The notes under the pieces: generated by a model
The model's database searches: none
Told to the model about the DNA's origin: nothing
Seen by the model: the letters and a program-made list of their open reading frames with translations, nothing else
In this document: positions 13,237-31,284 of the stretch, in pieces
How positions within the stretch are numbered: the stretch's first letter is position 1
How the letters are laid out: each line of letters starts with the position of its first letter
DNA from: an uncultured Gammaproteobacteria bacterium
Lineage (GTDB): Bacteria; Pseudomonadota; Gammaproteobacteria; DRJJ01
Direction of reading: 5' to 3'
Length of the DNA stretch: 54,172 nt
NCBI GenBank assembly: GCA_947258795.1
Contig: CAMYJU010000018.1
Location: forward strand, 123,691-177,862
Made by a program: the position numbers and the translations under genes

Positions 13237-14217
13237 ATGAGCAGTACTGACCAATCTACCCATATCCACAAGGTGGTGATTATACCCGATACCGCGGCCG
13301 GAAAACGACTCGATATGGCCCTGGGGCAGGTTTTGCCTGAATATTCGCGCTCACGCCTGAAAACCTGGATTGAGCAGGGCGAAATACTGCTTGATGGCAG
13401 ACAAGTCAGGCCGCGCGAGAAGGTGTTTGGCGGTGAGCAGGTTGCAATCGATGCGCAACTGGTCATGCACCAGCTGGTCCGGCCTGAGCCCATCCCGCTG
13501 GATATCGTCCATGAAGACAACGCGATACTGGTGATTAACAAGCCGGCAGGCCTGGTTGTACACCCGGCGGCCGGCAACTGGCAGGGTACCCTGCAGAACG
13601 CCCTGTTACATTATGATCCGGATCTGGATGCATTGCCACGCGCAGGGATTGTGCACCGCCTGGACAAGGATACAACCGGCCTGATGGTGGTTGCGCGTAC
13701 TCTTGAGGCCCATACACAGCTGGTCAAGGCGTTGCAGACCCACGCGGTTGAACGTGAGTATCAAGCGGTGGTACAGGGTGTGATGACTGCAGGGGGTATG
13801 GTTGACGCCCCGATAGGGCGGCATCCAGTGGATCGCAAACGCATGGCGATCGTGGATGGCGGCAAGCCCTCGGTGACGCACTATCGCGTCAGGCAGCGAT
13901 ACCGTGCGCATACACATATCATCCTGAACCTGGAAACCGGGCGTACCCATCAGATCAGGGTACATATGGCCTCGTTACACCACCCGCTGGTGGGTGATCC
14001 GGTTTATGGCGGTCGATTCAAATTGCCGCCGGGTGCATCTCCGGAGTTTATCCAGCAACTCAAAGCGTTTAAACGTCAGGCCCTGCATGCAGCACGACTG
14101 AGCCTGTTACACCCTGTCACCGGCAAGTCCGTTAGCTGGAGCGCGGAGTTGCCTGAAGATTTCACATCACTGCTTGACGCACTGGGACAGGACCTGTCGG
14201 AACATGAGCGGAGCTGA
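13237..14217 (+). CDS. rluD: 23S rRNA pseudouridine synthase RluD
   Basis: A 326-residue enzyme that isomerises uridines in helix 69 of 23S rRNA. The N-terminal S4 RNA-binding domain (RLDMALGQVLPEYSRSRLKTWIEQGEI) is followed by the catalytic domain with HRLDKDTTGLMVVA, whose Asp is the nucleophile, and the RTHQIRVHMA motif. It starts at ATG 13237, diverging from bamD, and its 3' end overlaps pgeF by 14 nt, indicating coupled translation. Confidence 0.95.
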   Translation: MSSTDQSTHIHKVVIIPDTAAGKRLDMALGQVLPEYSRSRLKTWIEQGEILLDGRQVRPREKVFGGEQVAIDAQLVMHQLVRPEPIPLDIVHEDNAILVINKPAGLVVHPAAGNWQGTLQNALLHYDPDLDALPRAGIVHRLDKDTTGLMVVARTLEAHTQLVKALQTHAVEREYQAVVQGVMTAGGMVDAPIGRHPVDRKRMAIVDGGKPSVTHYRVRQRYRAHTHIILNLETGRTHQIRVHMASLHHPLVGDPVYGGRFKLPPGASPEFIQQLKAFKRQALHAARLSLLHPVTGKSVSWSAELPEDFTSLLDALGQDLSEHERS

Positions 14218-14974
14218 AATTCAAATGGTCTGGGCGGATTTCGATCTACCCGGGATACGTGCCGGCACGACCATGCGCAACGGTGGCTGTGGCGCTGCAC
14301 CCTACCATTCACTGAACCTGGCGGCGCATGTCGGCGATGATGATGTAACGGTAGCCGAAAATCGCCAGCGACTCGAGCAGACTCTGGAGCTGCCTTCCTC
14401 ACCCTGCTGGTTAAACCAGGTGCACAGTAATGAGGTATGTCGGATCGATCAGTGCGTTCAGGGGCAAACCGCCGATGGCAGCTATACCGACGTACCAGGT
14501 GTCGTGCTGGCCGTGCTGACCGCTGATTGTTTACCCGTGGTACTGGCGGCCGCTAACGGCACAGAGGTGGCCGTGGTGCATGCGGGCTGGCGCGGGCTGG
14601 CGGCGGGCGTGATCGAATCGGCGCTGGCCTGTTTTCGATCTGATCGGTCAGAAATACAGGCATGGCTGGGACCGGCGATTGGTGTACAACACTATGAGAT
14701 TGATCAACAGGTCTATGACGCGTTTATGTCCGGACCGGTGCAGCACCAGACTGCCTTTTTTCCGTCCCGGCCGGGGCACTGGAACGCTGACATGGGTATG
14801 CTGGCCAGGCAACGGCTCCGGCATGCCGGTGTACGTATGACGACGAACCCCCGACAAACGTCGTCGCCATGGTGCAGTTTCGAGCATGATCAGCAGTTTT
14901 TCTCCTATCGGCGAGACGGGACCACCGGGCGCATGGCGACGCTGGTGTGGATAGAACCTGCGGTGAAATCCTGA
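14204..14974 (+). CDS. pgeF: Peptidoglycan editing factor PgeF / purine nucleoside phosphorylase (YfiH family)
   Basis: About 256 residues of the multicopper-oxidase-like DUF152 family. Members phosphorolyse purine nucleosides and, in E. coli, prevent misincorporation into peptidoglycan precursors. Metal-site motifs are visible: WLNQVHSNEV, TADCLPVVLA, AVVHAGWRGLAAGV and the late CSFEHDQQFFSYRRDG. The start ATG 14204 (MSGAEIQ) is preferred; the frame is open to 14174 but that extension lies inside rluD. The rluD-pgeF overlap is a recurrent arrangement. Confidence 0.9.
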   Translation: MSGAEIQMVWADFDLPGIRAGTTMRNGGCGAAPYHSLNLAAHVGDDDVTVAENRQRLEQTLELPSSPCWLNQVHSNEVCRIDQCVQGQTADGSYTDVPGVVLAVLTADCLPVVLAAANGTEVAVVHAGWRGLAAGVIESALACFRSDRSEIQAWLGPAIGVQHYEIDQQVYDAFMSGPVQHQTAFFPSRPGHWNADMGMLARQRLRHAGVRMTTNPRQTSSPWCSFEHDQQFFSYRRDGTTGRMATLVWIEPAVKS

Positions 14975-15024
14975 CTGCGTTATTATAGGCCGGATGGACG
15001 TTCGGACCGGGAATACAGACTGAC

Positions 15025-15798
15025 ATGTCATTACTATACTGGATACTCATTTTTTCCTTACTGGGTGGCGTGCTCAGTGTACTGGCGGCATCCGTGTTTC
15101 TGATCCTGCCGGACAACTGGCGCAACCGGATGATCCCCCATTTTGTCAGTTTCGCTATTGGCGCATTACTCGCTGCCGCCTTTCTGGCCCTGCTGCCACA
15201 TGCACTTGGCGGTCCGGTTGGTATAGACCCGCACCACCTGGGTATGACGGTTTTACTCGGGATACTGGTCTTTTTCCTGCTGGAGAAATTATTGCTGTGG
15301 CGGCATTGTCATGCCGATCATTGTGAAGGGCATAATGGCCATGGCAAACCGGCAGTCGCTGGCATGGTCGTTTTTGGCGATGGTTTGCATAATTTTGTCG
15401 ACGGGGTACTGATCGCGGCCGCCTTTATGACCGATATCGAACTGGGTATCGTCACCAGCCTGGCTGTTGCGGCACATGAGATTCCGCAGGAGATCGGAGA
15501 CTTTGCGTTGTTGTTGCATAGCGGTTTATCGCGCAAACGGGCGTTTATCTACAATATTGGTTCCAGTCTGACCACGGTGGTGGGTGCAATGCTGGCACTG
15601 TATAGCCTGTCCGGGGTGCAGCATGTTGTACCTTATATTCTGGTGATCGCATCATCCAGTTTTATATATATCGCCGTGGCAGACCTGATCCCCGGCCTGC
15701 ACCAGCGTACGCGCCTGCGTGAAACACTGAAACAGCTGAGTTTCATCGCGATAGGTATACTGGTGATATATTTAGCGCATACAACATTGCATCGTTGA
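15025..15798 (+). CDS. ZIP-family divalent metal transporter
   Basis: A 257-residue inner-membrane protein with about eight transmembrane helices. A His-rich cytoplasmic loop (LLWRHCHADHCEGHNGHGK) sits between the helices, followed by GDGLHNFVDGVLIAA and AVAAHEIPQEIGDFALLL, the two metal-binding helices of ZIP proteins. It probably imports zinc or another divalent metal. I see no metalloregulator site upstream, and its neighbours (pgeF, gcvR-like) do not explain its presence. Confidence 0.9.
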   Translation: MSLLYWILIFSLLGGVLSVLAASVFLILPDNWRNRMIPHFVSFAIGALLAAAFLALLPHALGGPVGIDPHHLGMTVLLGILVFFLLEKLLLWRHCHADHCEGHNGHGKPAVAGMVVFGDGLHNFVDGVLIAAAFMTDIELGIVTSLAVAAHEIPQEIGDFALLLHSGLSRKRAFIYNIGSSLTTVVGAMLALYSLSGVQHVVPYILVIASSSFIYIAVADLIPGLHQRTRLRETLKQLSFIAIGILVIYLAHTTLHR

Positions 15799-15858
15799 TA
15801 TGGACTGTTCAATATCGGTTTGCTGCAAGGTAAACCCTGCTGACTGAGTGAGGCATCT

Positions 15859-16380
15859 ATGAGTCACTGGTATATGTTAACGGTTATTGGCAAGGATCGG
15901 CGTGGTATTGTTGCGGCACTGACGCATGCCCTGTTTGAGGCGGGCTGTCATCTCGGTGAGGCATCGATGATGCGGCTCGGGGGCAATTTCACCATTATGC
16001 TGATGGTGGAGACAGAGCAGCGCAAAAAGACACTTGAGGACATGATAGAACCGGTAACGGACTCGATGGGTCTGTCATGGCATCTCGATCAGATCGAAGG
16101 GCAGCTGCACCGGCATCATGTACCGGATGTATCCATCAGTGTTTCTGGCGCGGACCGGCCCGGTATCGTCGCTCAGGTGACCGGCGCCCTGGCCGAGGCG
16201 GGACTGGATATTACCGATCTGGAATCCGATGTGGCGGGCAGTGCGGACAAGCCTGTCTATATCATGCAAATTGAAGGTATCGCAACCGAAGGCATCGAGG
16301 CATTACGATCTGCGTTGAGTGTTGCAACAGTCAGCAGTATCGACGTGAGTATAACGCCACTGGATACACTGATTGGCTGA
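15859..16380 (+). CDS. gcvR: ACT-domain protein, GcvR-like
   Basis: A 173-residue protein of two ACT domains: WYMLTVIGKDRRGIVAALTHAL (residues 4-25) and VSISVSGADRPGIVAQVTGALAE (about 95-117). ACT pairs of this length match GcvR, which in E. coli controls the glycine cleavage operon through GcvA by binding glycine. No gcvA is seen here, so the regulatory target is open. ATG 15859 has GAGG about 7 nt upstream. def follows after 9 nt, probably in one transcript. Confidence 0.8.
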   Translation: MSHWYMLTVIGKDRRGIVAALTHALFEAGCHLGEASMMRLGGNFTIMLMVETEQRKKTLEDMIEPVTDSMGLSWHLDQIEGQLHRHHVPDVSISVSGADRPGIVAQVTGALAEAGLDITDLESDVAGSADKPVYIMQIEGIATEGIEALRSALSVATVSSIDVSITPLDTLIG

Positions 16381-16389
16381 TACCCTGTT

Positions 16390-16902
16390 ATGACTGTATT
16401 GCAGATTATCACCTACCCCGATGAGCGCCTCAAACAGGAGTCGGAGCCGGTTCGCGACTTTGACGACAGTCTCAGGGCCTTTATTGCCGATCTGGATGAG
16501 ACTATGCACGCCGGACCGGGTGGCGTCGGGATTGCGGCACCGCAGGTCGGTCATTTCCGGCGCATCGTGATCGTGGATGTTTCAGGGCGCAAGAATACGC
16601 CTAACCACGGGCACCTGGTGTTGATCAATCCTGATATTACGGAATGGGAAGGTATGAAGGCTGGCCGTGAAGGCTGCATGTCGGTACCGGACTTTACCGG
16701 TAAAGTGATACGTGCCGAGCGCATACACCTGAAGGCCCAGGATGAAAATGGTGAATGGCACGAGTATGACATGGAAGGCTTTGAGGCGCGCGCCGTACAG
16801 CATGAAGTCGACCACCTGAATGGCATGCTGTTTCTGGACAGGCTGGTCAGTCGCCGTCATGACCTGTTCAAGCGCAAGGTTTACCAGGATAAAAGCAAAT
16901 AG
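16390..16902 (+). CDS. def: Peptide deformylase
   Basis: A 170-residue Fe2+ hydrolase that removes the N-formyl group from nascent proteins. All three family motifs are present: GVGIAAPQVG (residues 45-54), EGCMSVP (canonical EGCLS with Leu replaced by Met) and QHEVDHLNG, supplying Cys and two His ligands plus the catalytic Glu. There is no fmt neighbour, so this could be a second deformylase in the genome. It is linked to the gcvR-like gene by a 9-nt gap. Confidence 0.95.
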   Translation: MTVLQIITYPDERLKQESEPVRDFDDSLRAFIADLDETMHAGPGGVGIAAPQVGHFRRIVIVDVSGRKNTPNHGHLVLINPDITEWEGMKAGREGCMSVPDFTGKVIRAERIHLKAQDENGEWHEYDMEGFEARAVQHEVDHLNGMLFLDRLVSRRHDLFKRKVYQDKSK

Positions 16903-20701: not shown

Positions 20702-22375
20702 GTGGTGCAGGACTACCAGGCCGCGATACGGGCATTTGCACGGGATGAGATGACGCAGTCCGGTCTGTGCGATGCCTTGTCAGAAATTCTCAAACAGGAA
20801 CCCGGTAAGGCCACCCGGATACTGGAGGAAATCGAAAACCGGATCGAATCGCAGCAACAGCGGCATCAGCTAGTTGCCTGTATCAGGGAGCATACGGTTG
20901 AGCAGACGGTATTGCTACCCGGGGCCGGCGACAGGACACAGGTGCTGCCACTGGCTGAAACGCAAGTCGATTCCCGTGCAGCCACTACAGCGGACAGTAG
21001 CCCACAGGCATATCCCAGCGAGGCGGAAACCTTACTATCGACTGCCGGCGCAGGTGCTGCTGCCACACCCGAACCTGATCCCATGCCGGTACTGGAACCC
21101 GGGTCCATACTGAAGGACCGCTTTGTGCTGGAACAGAAGATCGGTGCCGGCGGTATGGGTATGGTGTTCAGGGCGCGCGATCTGCGTCGTGAAGAGGCGC
21201 TGGACAAGGAGCCCTATGTTGCGATCAAGTTATTAAACAACAAGTACCAGGACAAGCCCTATGCCTTTATCGCCCTGCAACGCGAAGCGAAAAAGGCGCA
21301 GAAGCTGTCACACCCGAATATTATTACGGTTTACGATTTTGACCGTGATGGCAGTTTGATGATGATGACTATGGAGCTGCTTGAAGGTCAATCATTGTTG
21401 CAGCTGATTCGTAGCCAACAAAAAAAACCGCTTGCACTTCCTCAGGCCTTTTCGATTATACGGGATATCTGCAGGGCATTGTCTCATGCGCATCGTAACC
21501 GTATTGTGCATGCCGATATCAAGCCGGCCAATGTGTTTATTACCAGTAACAACCAGGTCAAGATCCTGGACTTCGGCATTGCGCGCGCAGTTCAGGAGAT
21601 TATGGTGGAAGGAGCGGAGGAAACGGCCTTCTCGCCGGACATGTATGCTGCATTGACACCGACCTATGCCAGTCGTGAGATGCTGCTCGGTGAAAAGGCG
21701 CGGGCCAGTGATGATATTTATGCGCTGGCCTGTATCAGTTATGAATTGTTGACCGGACATCATCCATTCGGCAGGAAAACGGCGAAGGTAGCCGAGGCCG
21801 AGGGTTTGCAGGCAGTGCGTCCTCCGGGTCTGAAAAACCGGCAGTGGAGAGGCCTGCAAAAAGGGCTCGCGTTTCGTCGCGAACAGCGCACCGCCGAGGT
21901 AACTGATTTTATGCGCGAGGTGTTACCGGAGAGGCGCACGCTGACTCGGCCCGCAAAAGTTGCCCTGATCGGCTTTACCATCGTATTGCCGGTGATATTG
22001 GGTGCCTATCTGCATCAACTGGAACAGCCCGGTGACCTGGAGTCCGTGGTTGCGTTTGAAGACCTGTTACCGGCGGACAGACAGAAGGTTTCCGGCCTGC
22101 TGGAGATCGCCGAGGCGCATATGTCCATGCAGCGTCTGACTGCACCGCCTGGCAGCAATGCCTATGCGGCCTATCGTGAGGTGTTAAAGGTCCATCCGGA
22201 CAACAGTACAGCACGGGACGGCTTGAAGCGTATTGCTGATCGCTACCTGCGTATGGCCAGGGAGCGATTTGATAGTGGTGACCGGGCCGGGGCCTGGCAG
22301 ATGCTGGAGGCTGGCCTGGCGGTCAGGCCTGCGCACGAGGGGTTGCTGGCAATGCAAAAACGACTGGCAAAATAG
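20702..22375 (+). CDS. Membrane-anchored Ser/Thr protein kinase
   Basis: A 557-residue Hanks-type kinase. Residues 1-65 are a helical N-terminal region and 66-135 a low-complexity linker. The kinase domain (about 141-410) has the glycine loop IGAGGMGMVF, Lys176 in VAIK, Glu195, the catalytic loop HADIKPAN with Asp272, and DFG at 290-292, so it is predicted active. The Arg before the catalytic Asp is replaced by Ala271 (non-RD), which suggests regulation other than activation-loop phosphorylation. A transmembrane helix at about 419-437 is followed by a TPR-like extracytoplasmic domain (ARERFDSGDRAGAWQMLEAGLAVRP). It starts at GTG 20702, or GTG 20705 one codon later; GAGGA lies just upstream. 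No cognate phosphatase is visible nearby. Confidence 0.88.
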   Translation: MVQDYQAAIRAFARDEMTQSGLCDALSEILKQEPGKATRILEEIENRIESQQQRHQLVACIREHTVEQTVLLPGAGDRTQVLPLAETQVDSRAATTADSSPQAYPSEAETLLSTAGAGAAATPEPDPMPVLEPGSILKDRFVLEQKIGAGGMGMVFRARDLRREEALDKEPYVAIKLLNNKYQDKPYAFIALQREAKKAQKLSHPNIITVYDFDRDGSLMMMTMELLEGQSLLQLIRSQQKKPLALPQAFSIIRDICRALSHAHRNRIVHADIKPANVFITSNNQVKILDFGIARAVQEIMVEGAEETAFSPDMYAALTPTYASREMLLGEKARASDDIYALACISYELLTGHHPFGRKTAKVAEAEGLQAVRPPGLKNRQWRGLQKGLAFRREQRTAEVTDFMREVLPERRTLTRPAKVALIGFTIVLPVILGAYLHQLEQPGDLESVVAFEDLLPADRQKVSGLLEIAEAHMSMQRLTAPPGSNAYAAYREVLKVHPDNSTARDGLKRIADRYLRMARERFDSGDRAGAWQMLEAGLAVRPAHEGLLAMQKRLAK

Positions 22376-22442: not shown

Positions 22443-23861
22443 TCAGAACTCCATGCGCAGTCCGGCCTGGAATACATGCATGCTGGAGTCGGCCAGCCCG
22501 AATATGCCTTCATACTGTACAAACCAGCTTTTGTTGTCCGCCAGCTGCGCAGAGGTGCCGACTGCAACATTGAAGTAGTCCTCGTCCGGTGCATCGGTTG
22601 GCAACAGGATAGGTTGGTTCAGATTAGAGTTGAAGGTGCTGGCAATCGCGCCCAGGAAACGACCGCGGATTACCCGTGAATCATTTTCGTACTCATGTAC
22701 CCACTCAACGCGTAGCTGGGGTACCAGTACACCCCAGGAGTGACTGATGCTGTTGACCAGCTGGATGCCGAGGTTACTGGTTAAGGATTCAACATCCTGG
22801 GCATCGACCTGCATGCCCCAGAAACCAGCGCCGGTCTCGGTGAAGCCGTCAATCTCGACGTCGGTGTAATCCAGGCGCAGATAGGGGCTCAGGGTGAGTG
22901 ACTGGGTTTGAAACTCCTTGCCCAGACCCAGGCTGGCGGTGAAGATGTTGCTGTCGGTATCGCTGTTTGCAACCAGTGTATTCAGGTTGCTTTGTAAAAC
23001 GTTCCGGTCGGTCTCGACCTCGTTCCAGTGATAACTGACGATACCGTCGATATAGAAAGAATCGGTCTGGTAGTGCGTGCCGAACACCGAAAGGCTGAAT
23101 CCATCGACGGTCATGTCACCGGCGTTACGGTCAAAATCGGCCTCGTTGTTCGCATAGCCGAGCGCAGCACCCATAACAAAGCGATCGGTGAAACGGTAAT
23201 CCAGTCCTGCAGTGAAACTGTAACCGTCAATATCATAACCGGTTTCACCGCTGGTCGTTTCCCGGTCACCGGTCGACACTCTGGCGGAAATAAATGCCCC
23301 GTATGGACCTGCTGAACCATCGGCACTGGCACCGCCACCGCTGGCGGGACTGCTCCAATCCATGGTCAGAACCCCATTGTTGATTGTAGGTGCCTGGGCA
23401 GTACGTATGCCGGTGCTGCCACTTTTCAGGTCCTTGATGCGGGCAGACAGTTTATGACGATGTATGGTTGACAGTTCGGTCTGCAGACGCCCGGCGGCGG
23501 CAAACTGGTCGAACGCCAGTGACTGCAGGATATCGTGTTGTGTCCTGTCATTGCCTGAATTCAGTACGGCCTCCATATCGGCCCAGAACGCATCGGTAGG
23601 GCCGCCACTGGACGGGCAGGTGTACGGTCCACCGGTCACGGTGCGGGCGGAAATCGTTTCACCAATAATCGCAACACCTTCGCTGGGCGGGAGTGGCTGT
23701 GGATTACTTCCACACACATTCGGGTCGGTCAGATAGTCAACGACAGCCTGTTGTGCGCTGTTCAGCGGGTCTGCATAGGCGCTGCCTGCCGTTAACAACA
23801 GTGCGGACCCGAAACCCAGGATGATGGATTTAAAATGTTTATTTGGGGTGTGTGTGTGCAT
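22443..23861 (-). CDS. Autotransporter beta-barrel domain protein with short passenger
   Basis: A 472-residue outer-membrane protein. The start ATG 23861 is fixed by the SD GGGAGGAAG; the frame is open 28 codons further, but that extension lacks an SD and signal peptide. The signal peptide SIILGFGSALLLTAGSAYA is followed by a passenger of only about 160 residues holding two Cys (NVCGSN, YTCPSSGG). From about residue 190 the alternating pattern of an autotransporter barrel (PF03797-like) runs to the C-terminal FQAGLRMEF, ending in Phe as required for BAM recognition. Such proteins span the outer membrane. No passenger enzyme motif is recognisable; adhesion or a structural role is possible. The leader may pair with the SD (see findings). 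Confidence 0.82.
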   Translation of the reverse strand: MHTHTPNKHFKSIILGFGSALLLTAGSAYADPLNSAQQAVVDYLTDPNVCGSNPQPLPPSEGVAIIGETISARTVTGGPYTCPSSGGPTDAFWADMEAVLNSGNDRTQHDILQSLAFDQFAAAGRLQTELSTIHRHKLSARIKDLKSGSTGIRTAQAPTINNGVLTMDWSSPASGGGASADGSAGPYGAFISARVSTGDRETTSGETGYDIDGYSFTAGLDYRFTDRFVMGAALGYANNEADFDRNAGDMTVDGFSLSVFGTHYQTDSFYIDGIVSYHWNEVETDRNVLQSNLNTLVANSDTDSNIFTASLGLGKEFQTQSLTLSPYLRLDYTDVEIDGFTETGAGFWGMQVDAQDVESLTSNLGIQLVNSISHSWGVLVPQLRVEWVHEYENDSRVIRGRFLGAIASTFNSNLNQPILLPTDAPDEDYFNVAVGTSAQLADNKSWFVQYEGIFGLADSSMHVFQAGLRMEF

Positions 23862-23864
23862 GAA

Positions 23865-23986
23865 ACACTTCCTCCCTGAAATGCATAATATTAAAAGTAT
23901 GGATTTATGATGACACATTTCCGGGTGAAACAGAAGTCTTATCATTATTCAGGTCGTGTTGGAGTTCAGGAAGTGTAAGGAATTCT
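23865..23986 (-). promoter_or_regulatory. Long-range inverted repeat covering the autotransporter ribosome-binding site
   Basis: On the minus strand ACACTTCCTGAA (23986-23975) is complementary to the SD region TTCAGGGAGGAAGTGT (23880-23865): 12 pairs with a 4-nt bulge. If the leader starts upstream of 23986, the SD can be sequestered. Function is inferred. Confidence 0.4.
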
Positions 23987-24793: not shown

Positions 24794-24920
24794 TCCTGCT
24801 CAGGCCCCGGATACATTGCTAATGCTGACACTTATCGTTAAGATTACTATAAGTATTGCTTTTGTATAGGGCGTACGAGGCATATCGAATATGTTGCAGG
24901 GAGCGCATACACACATAATC

Positions 24921-26969
24921 ATGATCAGGAAGTCTTTCATAATTTTCATCCCCCTGGTTGCAATACTTGGCGCATGCGGTGGCGGTAGTGCGACCAGGTC
25001 CGATGCGGTTCAAAAACAGGCACCGGCAATAGGCCGACAGGACGTCGATAAAATCTTGATAGTCGACTGTCTGTTGCCCGGGGTGATCCGCAAGCTGGGC
25101 AGCCAGTTGACCTATCTGACACCACGTCGCCCTGTGCGCACGACTGCTTCAGACTGCGAAATACGGGGTGGGGAATATACCGCCTTTGATCGAGCGGATT
25201 ATCGTACCGCGCTGGCCGTATGGCTGGAAACGGCAAGCCAGGGCCAGGCCGACTCGCAGAATTATGTCGGTGAGATCTATGAGAAAGGGCTCGGTACAGC
25301 GCCTGACTATAACAAGGCAAGACAGTGGTACCTGAAAGCGGCACAACAGGGCCATGCCGGTGCACAGATTCATCTCGGTAATCTCTATGAGCATGGACTG
25401 GGTGTACAACAGGATATGGCCGCGGCGCTGAACTGGTACAGACGTGCATCCGGCCTGGAAGATGATGAGATTCAGTTTGCCTCTACGTTCAGGGTGCAAA
25501 GTGCCGGCATGCAGGCTGAACTGAAAGAGCTTAAAAAGCAACTGGCCCAGCGACAACAGCAGGCTGTGCGGCTGGGCCGGCAGCTTGCAGAAACGCGTTC
25601 CTTCCTGAAGATCAAGCAGGAGCAGGTTGACAAGTTGTCCGCGCGCTTGTTGTGGCTACAGAAGGAACGCACGGTGGTGACACTGAAAAACCAGGATAAA
25701 ACCGGTGAGGAGATCGCCCGGCTTGAACAGGAGTTGCAGGAGACCAGAAAGACCTACCAGCAACAAAAGCAGCAACTCGTTGAGTTGCAGGCGAAGGCCA
25801 GTCAACAGAAAAGCCGTATCCATCAGTTACAGGAACAGAAAAAGTCCATTCAAACGGCGAGTAACATTCCGGGGCCTGTGATCGAGATTCTGAATCCGCC
25901 GCTGACGCTGACTCGTGGCTTGCCATCGATGAGTGTACCTGCCGGTGTTGAACGGTATGCGTTGCACGGACGCGTAACCGCCGCCGCCGGTCTGGCATCC
26001 TTCACGGTCAACAATCAGCAGGTAACCACGGACGGTAGTGGCCGCTTTAACGCGCCGATTAAGATCAGAAAAAAACAGACCCGGGTGAGTGTGATGGCGG
26101 TTGACAAGGTCAGTCGCAAGGCGGAATTGTCATTCATGTTGACCATGGCGGAGCAGTCCGGTTTCGCAAGGGATAACAGTCAGGTCAAGGCGACCGCAGC
26201 CGGCAACCATATTCTGGAAGGTATCGATTTTGGCCAGTATCACGCACTGATTATCGGTAATACCCGCTACAGGCAGTTTCCGGATCTGAAATCTCCCGAG
26301 CAGGATGTCCGGCAGATAGAAAAACTGCTGAGGGAAAAATATGGGTTCAAAACGCGGCTGATCCTGAATGCAGATCGCTATACGATACTGTCATCGCTGA
26401 ATGAGCTGAGCAAGAAACTGGACGAGACAGATAATCTGCTGATCTATTATGCCGGTCACGGCGAACTGGACGAGGTAAACCAGCGTGGACACTGGTTGCC
26501 GGTTGATGCCGACAGGGACAATACCGCCAACTGGATATCAACTGTTAATATAACGGATATCCTGAACGTGATTCCGGCTCGGCACGTGATGGTGGTCGCC
26601 GACTCCTGTTATGCCGGCACCCTGTCGGTTGCAGCCCAGGCGAGGCTGGATGTTTCTACAGCAGATAACCGGCTCAAACGTAAATGGGTCGAGATCATGA
26701 ACCGCACGCGTGCACGCGTTGTGCTGACCTCCGGTGGTGTGCAGCCGGTACTGGACAGTGGTGGCGGGAAACACTCGGTGTTTGCGAAGGCGTTTCTCGA
26801 AACCTTGAAGAATAACCAGTCGGTGATCGAGGGATACAGTGTGTATCGTAAACTGGCCGATCGGGTCAGCCAGGCCGCCGCCAGTCTGCAGTTTGACCAG
26901 AATCCGCAGTATGCACCGATCAGGCATGGTGGGGGGCTGGGAGAGTTTTTCTTTGTGCCTGTTAAATAG
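24921..26969 (+). CDS. Caspase-fold (peptidase C14) lipoprotein with Sel1 repeats and coiled coil
   Basis: About 682 residues. The signal peptide IIFIPLVAILGAC ends in a lipobox, placing it at the envelope. A Cys-containing block follows (VDCLLPG, LTPRRP, DCEIRGGEY), then two Sel1-like repeats (ADSQNYVGEIYEKGLG, AGAQIHLGNLYEHGLG), a coiled coil of about 110 residues rich in Gln/Lys/Glu, and an Ig-like strand region. The C-terminal caspase domain starts at YHALIIGNTRY and has His513 (YYAGHGE) and Cys563 (ADSCYAG), the catalytic dyad. ATG 24921 lacks a good SD; ATG 24891, ten codons upstream, has GAGG and may be the real start. I recall the DCLLPG...TPRRP block from other proteobacterial caspase-family proteins, but no function for them. 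Confidence 0.85.
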   Translation: MIRKSFIIFIPLVAILGACGGGSATRSDAVQKQAPAIGRQDVDKILIVDCLLPGVIRKLGSQLTYLTPRRPVRTTASDCEIRGGEYTAFDRADYRTALAVWLETASQGQADSQNYVGEIYEKGLGTAPDYNKARQWYLKAAQQGHAGAQIHLGNLYEHGLGVQQDMAAALNWYRRASGLEDDEIQFASTFRVQSAGMQAELKELKKQLAQRQQQAVRLGRQLAETRSFLKIKQEQVDKLSARLLWLQKERTVVTLKNQDKTGEEIARLEQELQETRKTYQQQKQQLVELQAKASQQKSRIHQLQEQKKSIQTASNIPGPVIEILNPPLTLTRGLPSMSVPAGVERYALHGRVTAAAGLASFTVNNQQVTTDGSGRFNAPIKIRKKQTRVSVMAVDKVSRKAELSFMLTMAEQSGFARDNSQVKATAAGNHILEGIDFGQYHALIIGNTRYRQFPDLKSPEQDVRQIEKLLREKYGFKTRLILNADRYTILSSLNELSKKLDETDNLLIYYAGHGELDEVNQRGHWLPVDADRDNTANWISTVNITDILNVIPARHVMVVADSCYAGTLSVAAQARLDVSTADNRLKRKWVEIMNRTRARVVLTSGGVQPVLDSGGGKHSVFAKAFLETLKNNQSVIEGYSVYRKLADRVSQAAASLQFDQNPQYAPIRHGGGLGEFFFVPVK

Positions 26970-30162: not shown

Positions 30163-31284
30163 TCAGAACAGGGCCTGTTCCATTTCCTGGTAGACGAAGT
30201 GTGCGTTGCGAGGATGATTTTCCTTATACAGGGGGGATTGTTGCCAGTCGTTAAAGGCGGACTGGTCGATCGCATCCTGCATGTCGATATCCTGTTCGAT
30301 GGCCTGTGCCATGGATTCTCGCAGGCGTGTCACATAGGAGCGGGTTTTTTCGACCATCGGGAAAGGCCGGGTCTGGGCGCTGCCATGACCGGGTACCATC
30401 AGGCGGGCATTAGCAAACCGGCGGACCAGCCAGTCCTGCGCTTCCAGGATTTGCTCGCTGTCACCATCACCCATGTAGGTGGTGCGCTGGTTGAAGGCCA
30501 GGTCCGAGATCCAGACAATATTTTCCTTTAGCTGGTGAACGACCAGGTCACCATGGGAATGGTGCTTGCCAGAGTTGTAGACCACAAAGGTCTGGTCGCC
30601 AGCGGTAATGGTCTGGCTGGAGTAGCGCTCACCACCGATCAGGATGTCGGGTCTGACCATTTCGAAATTCGACATGTCATCCGGCATCAGTTCGCGTCGG
30701 TATGGCACTGAGGCCTCGATGGTCTCTGAGCCGATATAGTCAAGCATGCCTTCGTGCCCGATAATCGTGACTTTGTCGAGTCGGCGGAACGCAATCGCAC
30801 CATAGGCGTGATCGGGATGGTTATGCGTGATAATCAGGTGGGTAACCGGTTTATCGGTGACGCTGGCGATGGTGCTGATCAGGCGCTGTCCCAGCCGGGG
30901 TGTACCCAGTGTATCGATCACGACCACGCCCTCCGAACCGATAATAAAACCGGCATTGGCAACCGCACCGCGGTTGGAGGTGTTGATCTGGGCGATATTG
31001 CCAAAAAACATATAGGTGTTCGGGGCAATCTGATGTATCGGCAGCGGCGTATCCGCGCGATCACTGGCTGTAAAAATCAACCTGGGCAGTTCCTCGGTAT
31101 CGACTGCGGTTCCGGGAATCACAGTATCGTTACTGCCCTGACCGGATACATGGCTTCCGGTCTGTGATGCTGGAGTTATTGGGCTTGGCACCGCTTCTTC
31201 ATAACGCTGATTGCTGGTGTAGATCAACAGCGGTATGGCGAGCAGTATGGCCAGGCCAAGCATGGTTTTATGTCGGGTATCCAT
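30163..31284 (-). CDS. Membrane-anchored metallo-beta-lactamase-fold hydrolase (SoxH-like)
   Basis: A 373-residue protein with an N-terminal membrane anchor (LGLAILLAIPLLIY) and an exported metallo-beta-lactamase domain. Zn ligands are visible: HNHPDH (HxHxDH), His in SGKHHSHGD, Asp in WISDLAF and His in VPGHGSAQT. Exported MBL proteins with this layout include SoxH and zinc hydrolases linked to quinoprotein relay systems; the substrate remains unknown. ATG 31284 has the strong SD GGGAGG. It is upstream of putA with a 14-nt gap. Confidence 0.8.
   Translation of the reverse strand: MDTRHKTMLGLAILLAIPLLIYTSNQRYEEAVPSPITPASQTGSHVSGQGSNDTVIPGTAVDTEELPRLIFTASDRADTPLPIHQIAPNTYMFFGNIAQINTSNRGAVANAGFIIGSEGVVVIDTLGTPRLGQRLISTIASVTDKPVTHLIITHNHPDHAYGAIAFRRLDKVTIIGHEGMLDYIGSETIEASVPYRRELMPDDMSNFEMVRPDILIGGERYSSQTITAGDQTFVVYNSGKHHSHGDLVVHQLKENIVWISDLAFNQRTTYMGDGDSEQILEAQDWLVRRFANARLMVPGHGSAQTRPFPMVEKTRSYVTRLRESMAQAIEQDIDMQDAIDQSAFNDWQQSPLYKENHPRNAHFVYQEMEQALF

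Follow-up and report, generated by a model that had tools for sequence, protein, structure and literature searches.

To our knowledge, the literature almost always treats caspase homologues of bacteria as death agents of the cytoplasm, with few known substrates. The locus described here raises the question of what this fold would do in a gammaproteobacterial protein that its lipoprotein signal probably anchors in the outer envelope, and on which protein it would act there. Coordinates are positions in the window, the whole analysed stretch of 54,172 nt of contig CAMYJU010000018.1 (assembly GCA_947258795.1), unless a region of another genome is named.

Domain structure and conservation of the caspase-fold lipoprotein

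The gene and the parts of its product were as follows:

24921..26969, plus strand: caspase-fold lipoprotein gene, 682 amino acids plus stop (ATG 24921, TAG 26969)
24921..24977, plus strand: predicted signal peptide of a lipoprotein (residues 1-18), followed by Cys19 as the lipidation site; PS51257-like pattern, with Gly as the +2 residue
25044..25223, plus strand: conserved N-terminal block (N-block; residues 42-101), with Cys50 (25068-25070) and Cys79 (25155-25157); no Pfam family
25224..25454, plus strand: two Sel1 repeats (residues 102-178; Pfam PF08238)
25482..25859, plus strand: coiled coil (residues 188-313), a spacer of variable length; AlphaFold2 helices 188-256 and 262-313
25866..26150, plus strand: beta domain of Ig type (residues 316-410), seen in the AlphaFold2 model and matched weakly, under the cut-off, by Glucodextran_B
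26241..26912, plus strand: Peptidase_C14 (caspase) domain (residues 441-664), with His513 (26457-26459) and Cys563 (26607-26609)

With an alternative in-frame start (ATG at 24891), the product would be 10 residues longer and, judged from the sequence, would have a worse signal peptide. Pfam assigned Peptidase_C14 (PF00656; 84.5 bits against a cut-off of 21.4) to residues 441-664 and Sel1 (64.6 bits against 30.7) to the two repeats, while the N-block matched no Pfam family and the Ig-like part gave sub-threshold matches only. The lipobox (ILGAC), Cys50 and Cys79, His513 (within YYAGHG) and Cys563 (within ADSCY) were all reproduced in the 682-residue frame at the places proposed by an earlier sequence-only reading. 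With a p20 domain and the His/Cys dyad, the protein is, by its sequence, an orthocaspase-like member of family C14. In an AlphaFold2 model built from a 26-row alignment (mean pLDDT, 78.7; pTM, 0.44), the N-block was small and beta-rich (strands between residues 47 and 75, helix 76-81) and was followed by the Sel1 helices, the two long helices, a beta domain (residues 320-409) and the caspase fold; since pTM was 0.44, the arrangement of these domains in the model is not trustworthy.

A whole-protein search of 369 genomes sampled from the class gave matches at E <= 1e-50 in 33, and 24 of these, from 15 families, made up the full-length set of 26 loci (two loci each in G248 and G339). The nine genomes left out were G001 and G317 (protein truncated where the contig stops), G208 (no caspase domain), and G116, G167, G217, G231, G244 and G340 (N-block not found). 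Cys50 and Cys79 were each present in 26/26 loci, the conservation of Cys79 being partly by construction because the pattern used for picking the loci includes it. An independent search with an N-block profile gave 28 places, namely the 26 loci together with G208 and G085; a pattern scan of genome contigs gave two loci only, one in a sister genome and one a Sel1-only match. The mean share of the commonest residue among the 26 homologues was 77.6% in the N-block, 74.8% in Sel1, 66.8% in the caspase domain, 50.8% in the Ig-like part and 31.0% in the coil, a pattern which, on these sequences, is not due to chance. The linker from Sel1 to the Ig-like part, which holds the coiled coil, varied from 115 to 473 residues, and the coil was almost missing in two further relatives (G525 and G490). 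By this comparison the coiled coil is dispensable, and the earlier proposal that it is the key to oligomerisation was weakened.

Loss of the His/Cys pair in close homologues had been named as one finding that would refute the earlier reading; the dyad was intact in 26/26 full-length relatives, and was also kept in the two distant relatives and in an Azospirillum fusion protein described below. The best solved structures in Foldseek were MALT1 paracaspase (E 6.3e-12), plant metacaspases and bacterial GSU0716, and phmmer with the catalytic domain alone found MALT1 at 2.8e-10. MALT1 also carries an Ig-like domain beside its caspase domain, but on the other side, and differs in being a cytoplasmic human signalling protease. 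Asp462 and Asp561, which may line an acidic S1 pocket, were invariant (26/26), and Asp462 aligned with an Asp of MALT1. Since the non-caspase C14 members characterised so far favour Arg or Lys at P1, according to an excerpt of PMC5756287, and since both Asp residues are invariant, the enzyme is predicted to cut after Arg or Lys.

The lipobox pattern, modelled on PS51257, was present in 25/26 full-length relatives (the exception, L068, has Tyr at -3) and in 52/442 neighbouring ORFs used as a control, in line with the lipidated Cys proposed before. Asp at position +2 governs lipoprotein sorting (the +2 rule), and because none of the 26 rows has Asp there, sorting to the outer membrane is predicted. 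The window protein contains Cys at positions 19, 50, 79 and 563 and nowhere else, and the mature protein had exactly four Cys in 26/26: the lipid anchor, Cys50, Cys79 and the catalytic Cys. At the Cys content of the linked kinases (0.5%; see below), approximately 100 scattered Cys would be expected over the approximately 20,000 residues concerned. This pattern agrees with export of the protein, a single disulfide and a catalytic thiol that stays free; as the mature proteins have only these four Cys, Cys50 and Cys79 are the sole candidates for such a bond, as had been supposed for this pair.

Part of this architecture has precedents. According to excerpts of PMC3501461 and PMC4933709, prokaryotic caspase homologues that bear Sel1 or associate with membranes have already been published: in the former (Asplund-Samuelsson 2012), 40 of 671 prokaryotic caspase sequences carry Sel1, and 98 of 671 were classed as 'membrane', the majority having at the N-terminus a helix that is possibly a signal peptide. 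The statement of the sequence-only reading that an envelope location is unusual for this fold was, against those excerpted counts, overstated. The prokaryotic metacaspases and orthocaspases of that excerpt share the p20 domain, the His/Cys dyad and Sel1 repeats with the window protein, which adds a lipoprotein signal, the N-block, the four Cys and the autotransporter locus, and in which the caspase domain is C-terminal, whereas it is N-terminal in the published proteins. The same paper lists 16 metacaspase operons with surface functions and 14 with OmpA, and its text does not contain the word autotransporter. Sel1-caspase proteins are thus already known, while no description of the N-block, the four-Cys pattern or the locus was found in open-licence PubMed Central full text.

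Caspase domains are also common effectors in bacterial conflict systems (excerpt of PMC7159879), and one may consider an envelope protease under kinase control that serves cell death or conflict; we regard this as very unlikely. The EACC1-associated caspases (NF047832; excerpt of PMC7159879) resemble the window protein in being membrane-associated and in having several domain partners, but its score to that model was 76.3 bits against a cut-off of 140, and no STAND, EACC1 or other effector partner was named by Pfam or NCBIfam among nine window proteins. PADLOC gave a weak caspase match (36.6 bits), and its kinase matches were to the general kinase domain; a defence system was not supported by these matches. 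The phage collection contained no match to the lipoprotein, which speaks against a conflict protease as well as against a phage origin.

Genes linked to the caspase lipoprotein

The sequence-only reading did not include the conserved gene neighbourhood. Clustering of the ORFs in the fetched regions gave three recurrent neighbours, all of which are present in the window:

20702..22375, plus strand: Ser/Thr protein kinase; domain residues 142-408, hydrophobic helix at approximately 417-440, C-terminal TPR-like part predicted outside the cytoplasm
22443..23945, minus strand: autotransporter whose passenger is short, with a PF03797 beta-domain (202.7 bits); no second PF03797 gene was found in the genome
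23993..24793, minus strand: lipoprotein of alpha/beta-hydrolase type, transcribed divergently from the caspase gene, with Ser155, Asp221 and His249 conserved in 15/15

Within 15 kb of the caspase gene, an autotransporter was found in 16/24 genomes (0.39 expected; 12/15 families), a transmembrane Ser/Thr kinase in 20/24 (1.18 expected; 13/15 families) and an alpha/beta-hydrolase lipoprotein in 14/24 (0.23 expected; 9/15 families). The expected values assume uniform gene positions and independent genomes, and relatedness makes the chance figures too small, for which reason the family counts are given. As a control, the genome-wide totals in the 24 genomes were 1-5 autotransporters, 3-12 kinases and 0-2 hydrolases of the window type per genome. 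All three neighbours occurred together in 9/24 genomes and none in 3/24 (G202, G075 and G163). Among the eight genomes with no autotransporter within 15 kb, a contig end was near in G052, G243, G010, G163 and G285, and not in G202, G075 and G300. In three genomes outside the full-length set (G208, G525 and G490), the only PF03797 gene directly adjoined the gene for the N-block protein. Such recurrence in many unrelated relatives suggests a shared job at the cell surface.

At the threshold used, one strong hydrophobic stretch followed the kinase domain in 22/23 linked kinases; most of these are therefore predicted to have a cytoplasmic kinase domain and an outer part. The linked kinases did not form one dedicated kinase: there were at least three groups, and 10/22 were best matched by the linked kinase of the window. 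Nor did the linked autotransporters form one dedicated clade, as the linked and unlinked labels were not clustered among the autotransporters of these genomes (13 changes against a shuffled mean of 14.7; 128/500 shuffles as low). A basic-Gly-Gly stretch before the barrel of linked autotransporters, resembling an orthocaspase cleavage site, was dropped as evidence since, read by eye, unlinked autotransporters have it too. The hydrolase family was found in 50/369 class genomes, many with no caspase gene, and among the 24 genomes it was unlinked in 6 of the 20 that bear it. From these comparisons, the caspase lipoprotein is the constant of the locus, and its partners are exchanged. The absence of a linked-autotransporter clade, the several kinase groups and the hydrolases in genomes lacking the caspase together weaken a one-enzyme-one-substrate picture, and the swapped partners favour either a protease that would recognise a motif general to type V clients or a surface programme that the genes share.

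The latter would correspond to a loose surface or signalling island, in which the four genes belong to one envelope programme, their proteins do not touch, and the caspase acts on other envelope proteins. The different subfamilies of the locus autotransporters and kinases and the independent distribution of the hydrolase are consistent with it, but between 9 and 13 of the 15 families show the linkage, with little else shared around the caspase gene, and in a different class a caspase occurs in fusion with a type Vb protein. We consider such an island unlikely.

Several other features were observed at these loci. Some also hold a PP2C phosphatase or an OmpA-like protein. The hydrolase family (alignment A2) has a conserved GRPCY motif and invariant Ser, Asp and His, and is matched weakly by Pfam hydrolase families. 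A C-terminal PPGxNA motif outside the kinase domain was present in 8/23 linked kinases and in 0/7 other kinases of the window's genome. Two genomes (G231, L077:8717-11269; G116, L079:3093-5645) encode a fusion of an FHA-like N-terminus and a caspase domain, directly followed by a gene for a PP2C-like phosphatase, which is another pairing of a caspase with Ser/Thr phosphorylation. Elsewhere in the window, five ORFs (13237-16902, plus strand) recur in the same order at the caspase region of G200 (clusters 19-23), and 30163-31284 (minus strand) encodes a metallo-beta-lactamase fold that comes closest to the quinoprotein relay hydrolases related to SoxH, at 185.7 bits against a curated cut-off of 280.

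The N-block without a caspase, and a caspase within a type Vb protein

The N-block had been proposed as a dedicated domain to be searched for by profile on its own. Its high conservation and lack of a Pfam family agree with this, and a profile of 16 rows (A3) found it in 26/369 class genomes, namely the 24 with full-length proteins, G208 and G085. Among 299 genomes of the phylum, three matched: that of the window, G525 and G490, the last two being of one genus and both listed under the window's class, with proteins of 596 and 556 amino acids that have the dyad and almost no coiled coil. G208 and G085, which also form one genus, encode lipoproteins of approximately 327 amino acids with no coil and no caspase domain:

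L075:9816-10799 (G208): caspase-less lipoprotein, N-block, Sel1 and Ig-like part
L104:9085-10071 (G085): caspase-less lipoprotein, N-block, Sel1 and Ig-like part

Compared with G208, the G085 protein looks shifted in its N-terminal part, and the gene may be frame-shifted. In the sequences seen, the N-block thus never occurs apart from Sel1, and only one genus has it without the caspase domain.

The G208 gene, 112 bp downstream of an autotransporter gene, and the higher conservation of the N-block and Sel1 than of the caspase domain speak for another reading. The protein might then be a scaffold or chaperone for autotransporter biogenesis, the N-block and Sel1 docking the client and proteolysis being secondary (quality control of failed clients). 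A precedent is SadB, a lipoprotein coded with the autotransporter SadA that helps its export; in the excerpt of PMC8151025, SadB differs as an inner-membrane trimer for a trimeric autotransporter, with no protease domain described. The SadB-type arrangement of a lipoprotein gene beside an autotransporter gene was present in the same 16/24 genomes, as an analogy that implies no sequence relation. On the other hand, retention of the dyad in all 26 full-length proteins and the two distant relatives argues that protease activity is under selection, and the domain is absent only in G208 and G085 among the N-block genomes seen, that is, in one genus with one possibly frame-shifted gene. A scaffold is, on balance, somewhat unlikely.

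A hint, independent of the locus, that joins a caspase domain to type V secretion came from outside the class. In the plasmid collection (E <= 1e-20), matches were confined to four Azospirillum plasmids and covered query residues 348-671; the matching protein carries the annotation 'filamentous hemagglutinin N-terminal domain protein':

L143:3633-8936 (Azospirillum ramasamyi plasmid): type Vb (TPS) exoprotein, Ig-like and caspase domains at its C-terminal end

This protein (1768 amino acids) has the TPS secretion domain, Glucodextran_B and Peptidase_C14 in this order in Pfam, with an intact dyad, and the three other Azospirillum plasmids gave the same kind of match. A caspase domain is thus built into a type Vb exoprotein outside the class of the window.

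A putative protease for type V surface proteins

We tentatively favour, while holding it far from assured, the reading that the protein is a lipid-anchored C14 envelope protease of caspase fold, probably on the outer membrane, whose work is done on, or together with, type V surface proteins, foremost the adjoining autotransporter. The features read directly from the sequence are the lipoprotein signal, the dyad and the neighbouring invariant acidic residues, the four Cys, the N-block with Sel1, and the gene linkage. In the mechanism that we envisage, a Cys50-Cys79 disulfide would staple the N-block, which with the Sel1 repeats would form the docking part, and the coiled coil would be an arm of adjustable reach. 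The caspase domain would then cut a surface protein after Arg or Lys for maturation, release or trimming, and the kinase may report the state of the envelope or surface to the cytoplasm and regulate the system.

An envelope protease is supported by the dyad and the four Cys in every full-length relative, the lipobox in nearly all, the linkage, the Azospirillum fusion, the MALT1-like fold and the precedent of NalP and SphB1. Like these two (excerpt of PMC9289746), it would be a lipidated protease, lie at the surface and process other type V proteins, a parallel drawn from gene linkage, but NalP and SphB1 have a subtilisin fold fused to their own barrel, whereas in the window the fold is that of caspase and the barrel is another gene; Pfam found neither a subtilase passenger nor an autotransporter barrel in the caspase protein. 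The same envelope protease is weakened by the lack of an autotransporter clade, the basic-Gly-Gly stretch in unlinked autotransporters and the mixed kinase subfamilies, as well as by G208, which has the autotransporter neighbour yet no caspase domain, and by G202 and G075, which have none of the three neighbours. A broader form of this reading, possible but rather doubtful, is that such caspase-fold lipoproteins form a family devoted to type V secretion, which at the outer membrane would mature, release or police autotransporters under the control of a transmembrane Ser/Thr kinase, as a counterpart of NalP and SphB1 with fused versions in type Vb proteins.

If the envelope protease proposed here is real, the caspase fold would have a role outside cell death, namely the processing of surface proteins, and a lipid-anchored, dyad-keeping family that travels with a surface-display gene would provide a concrete substrate candidate.
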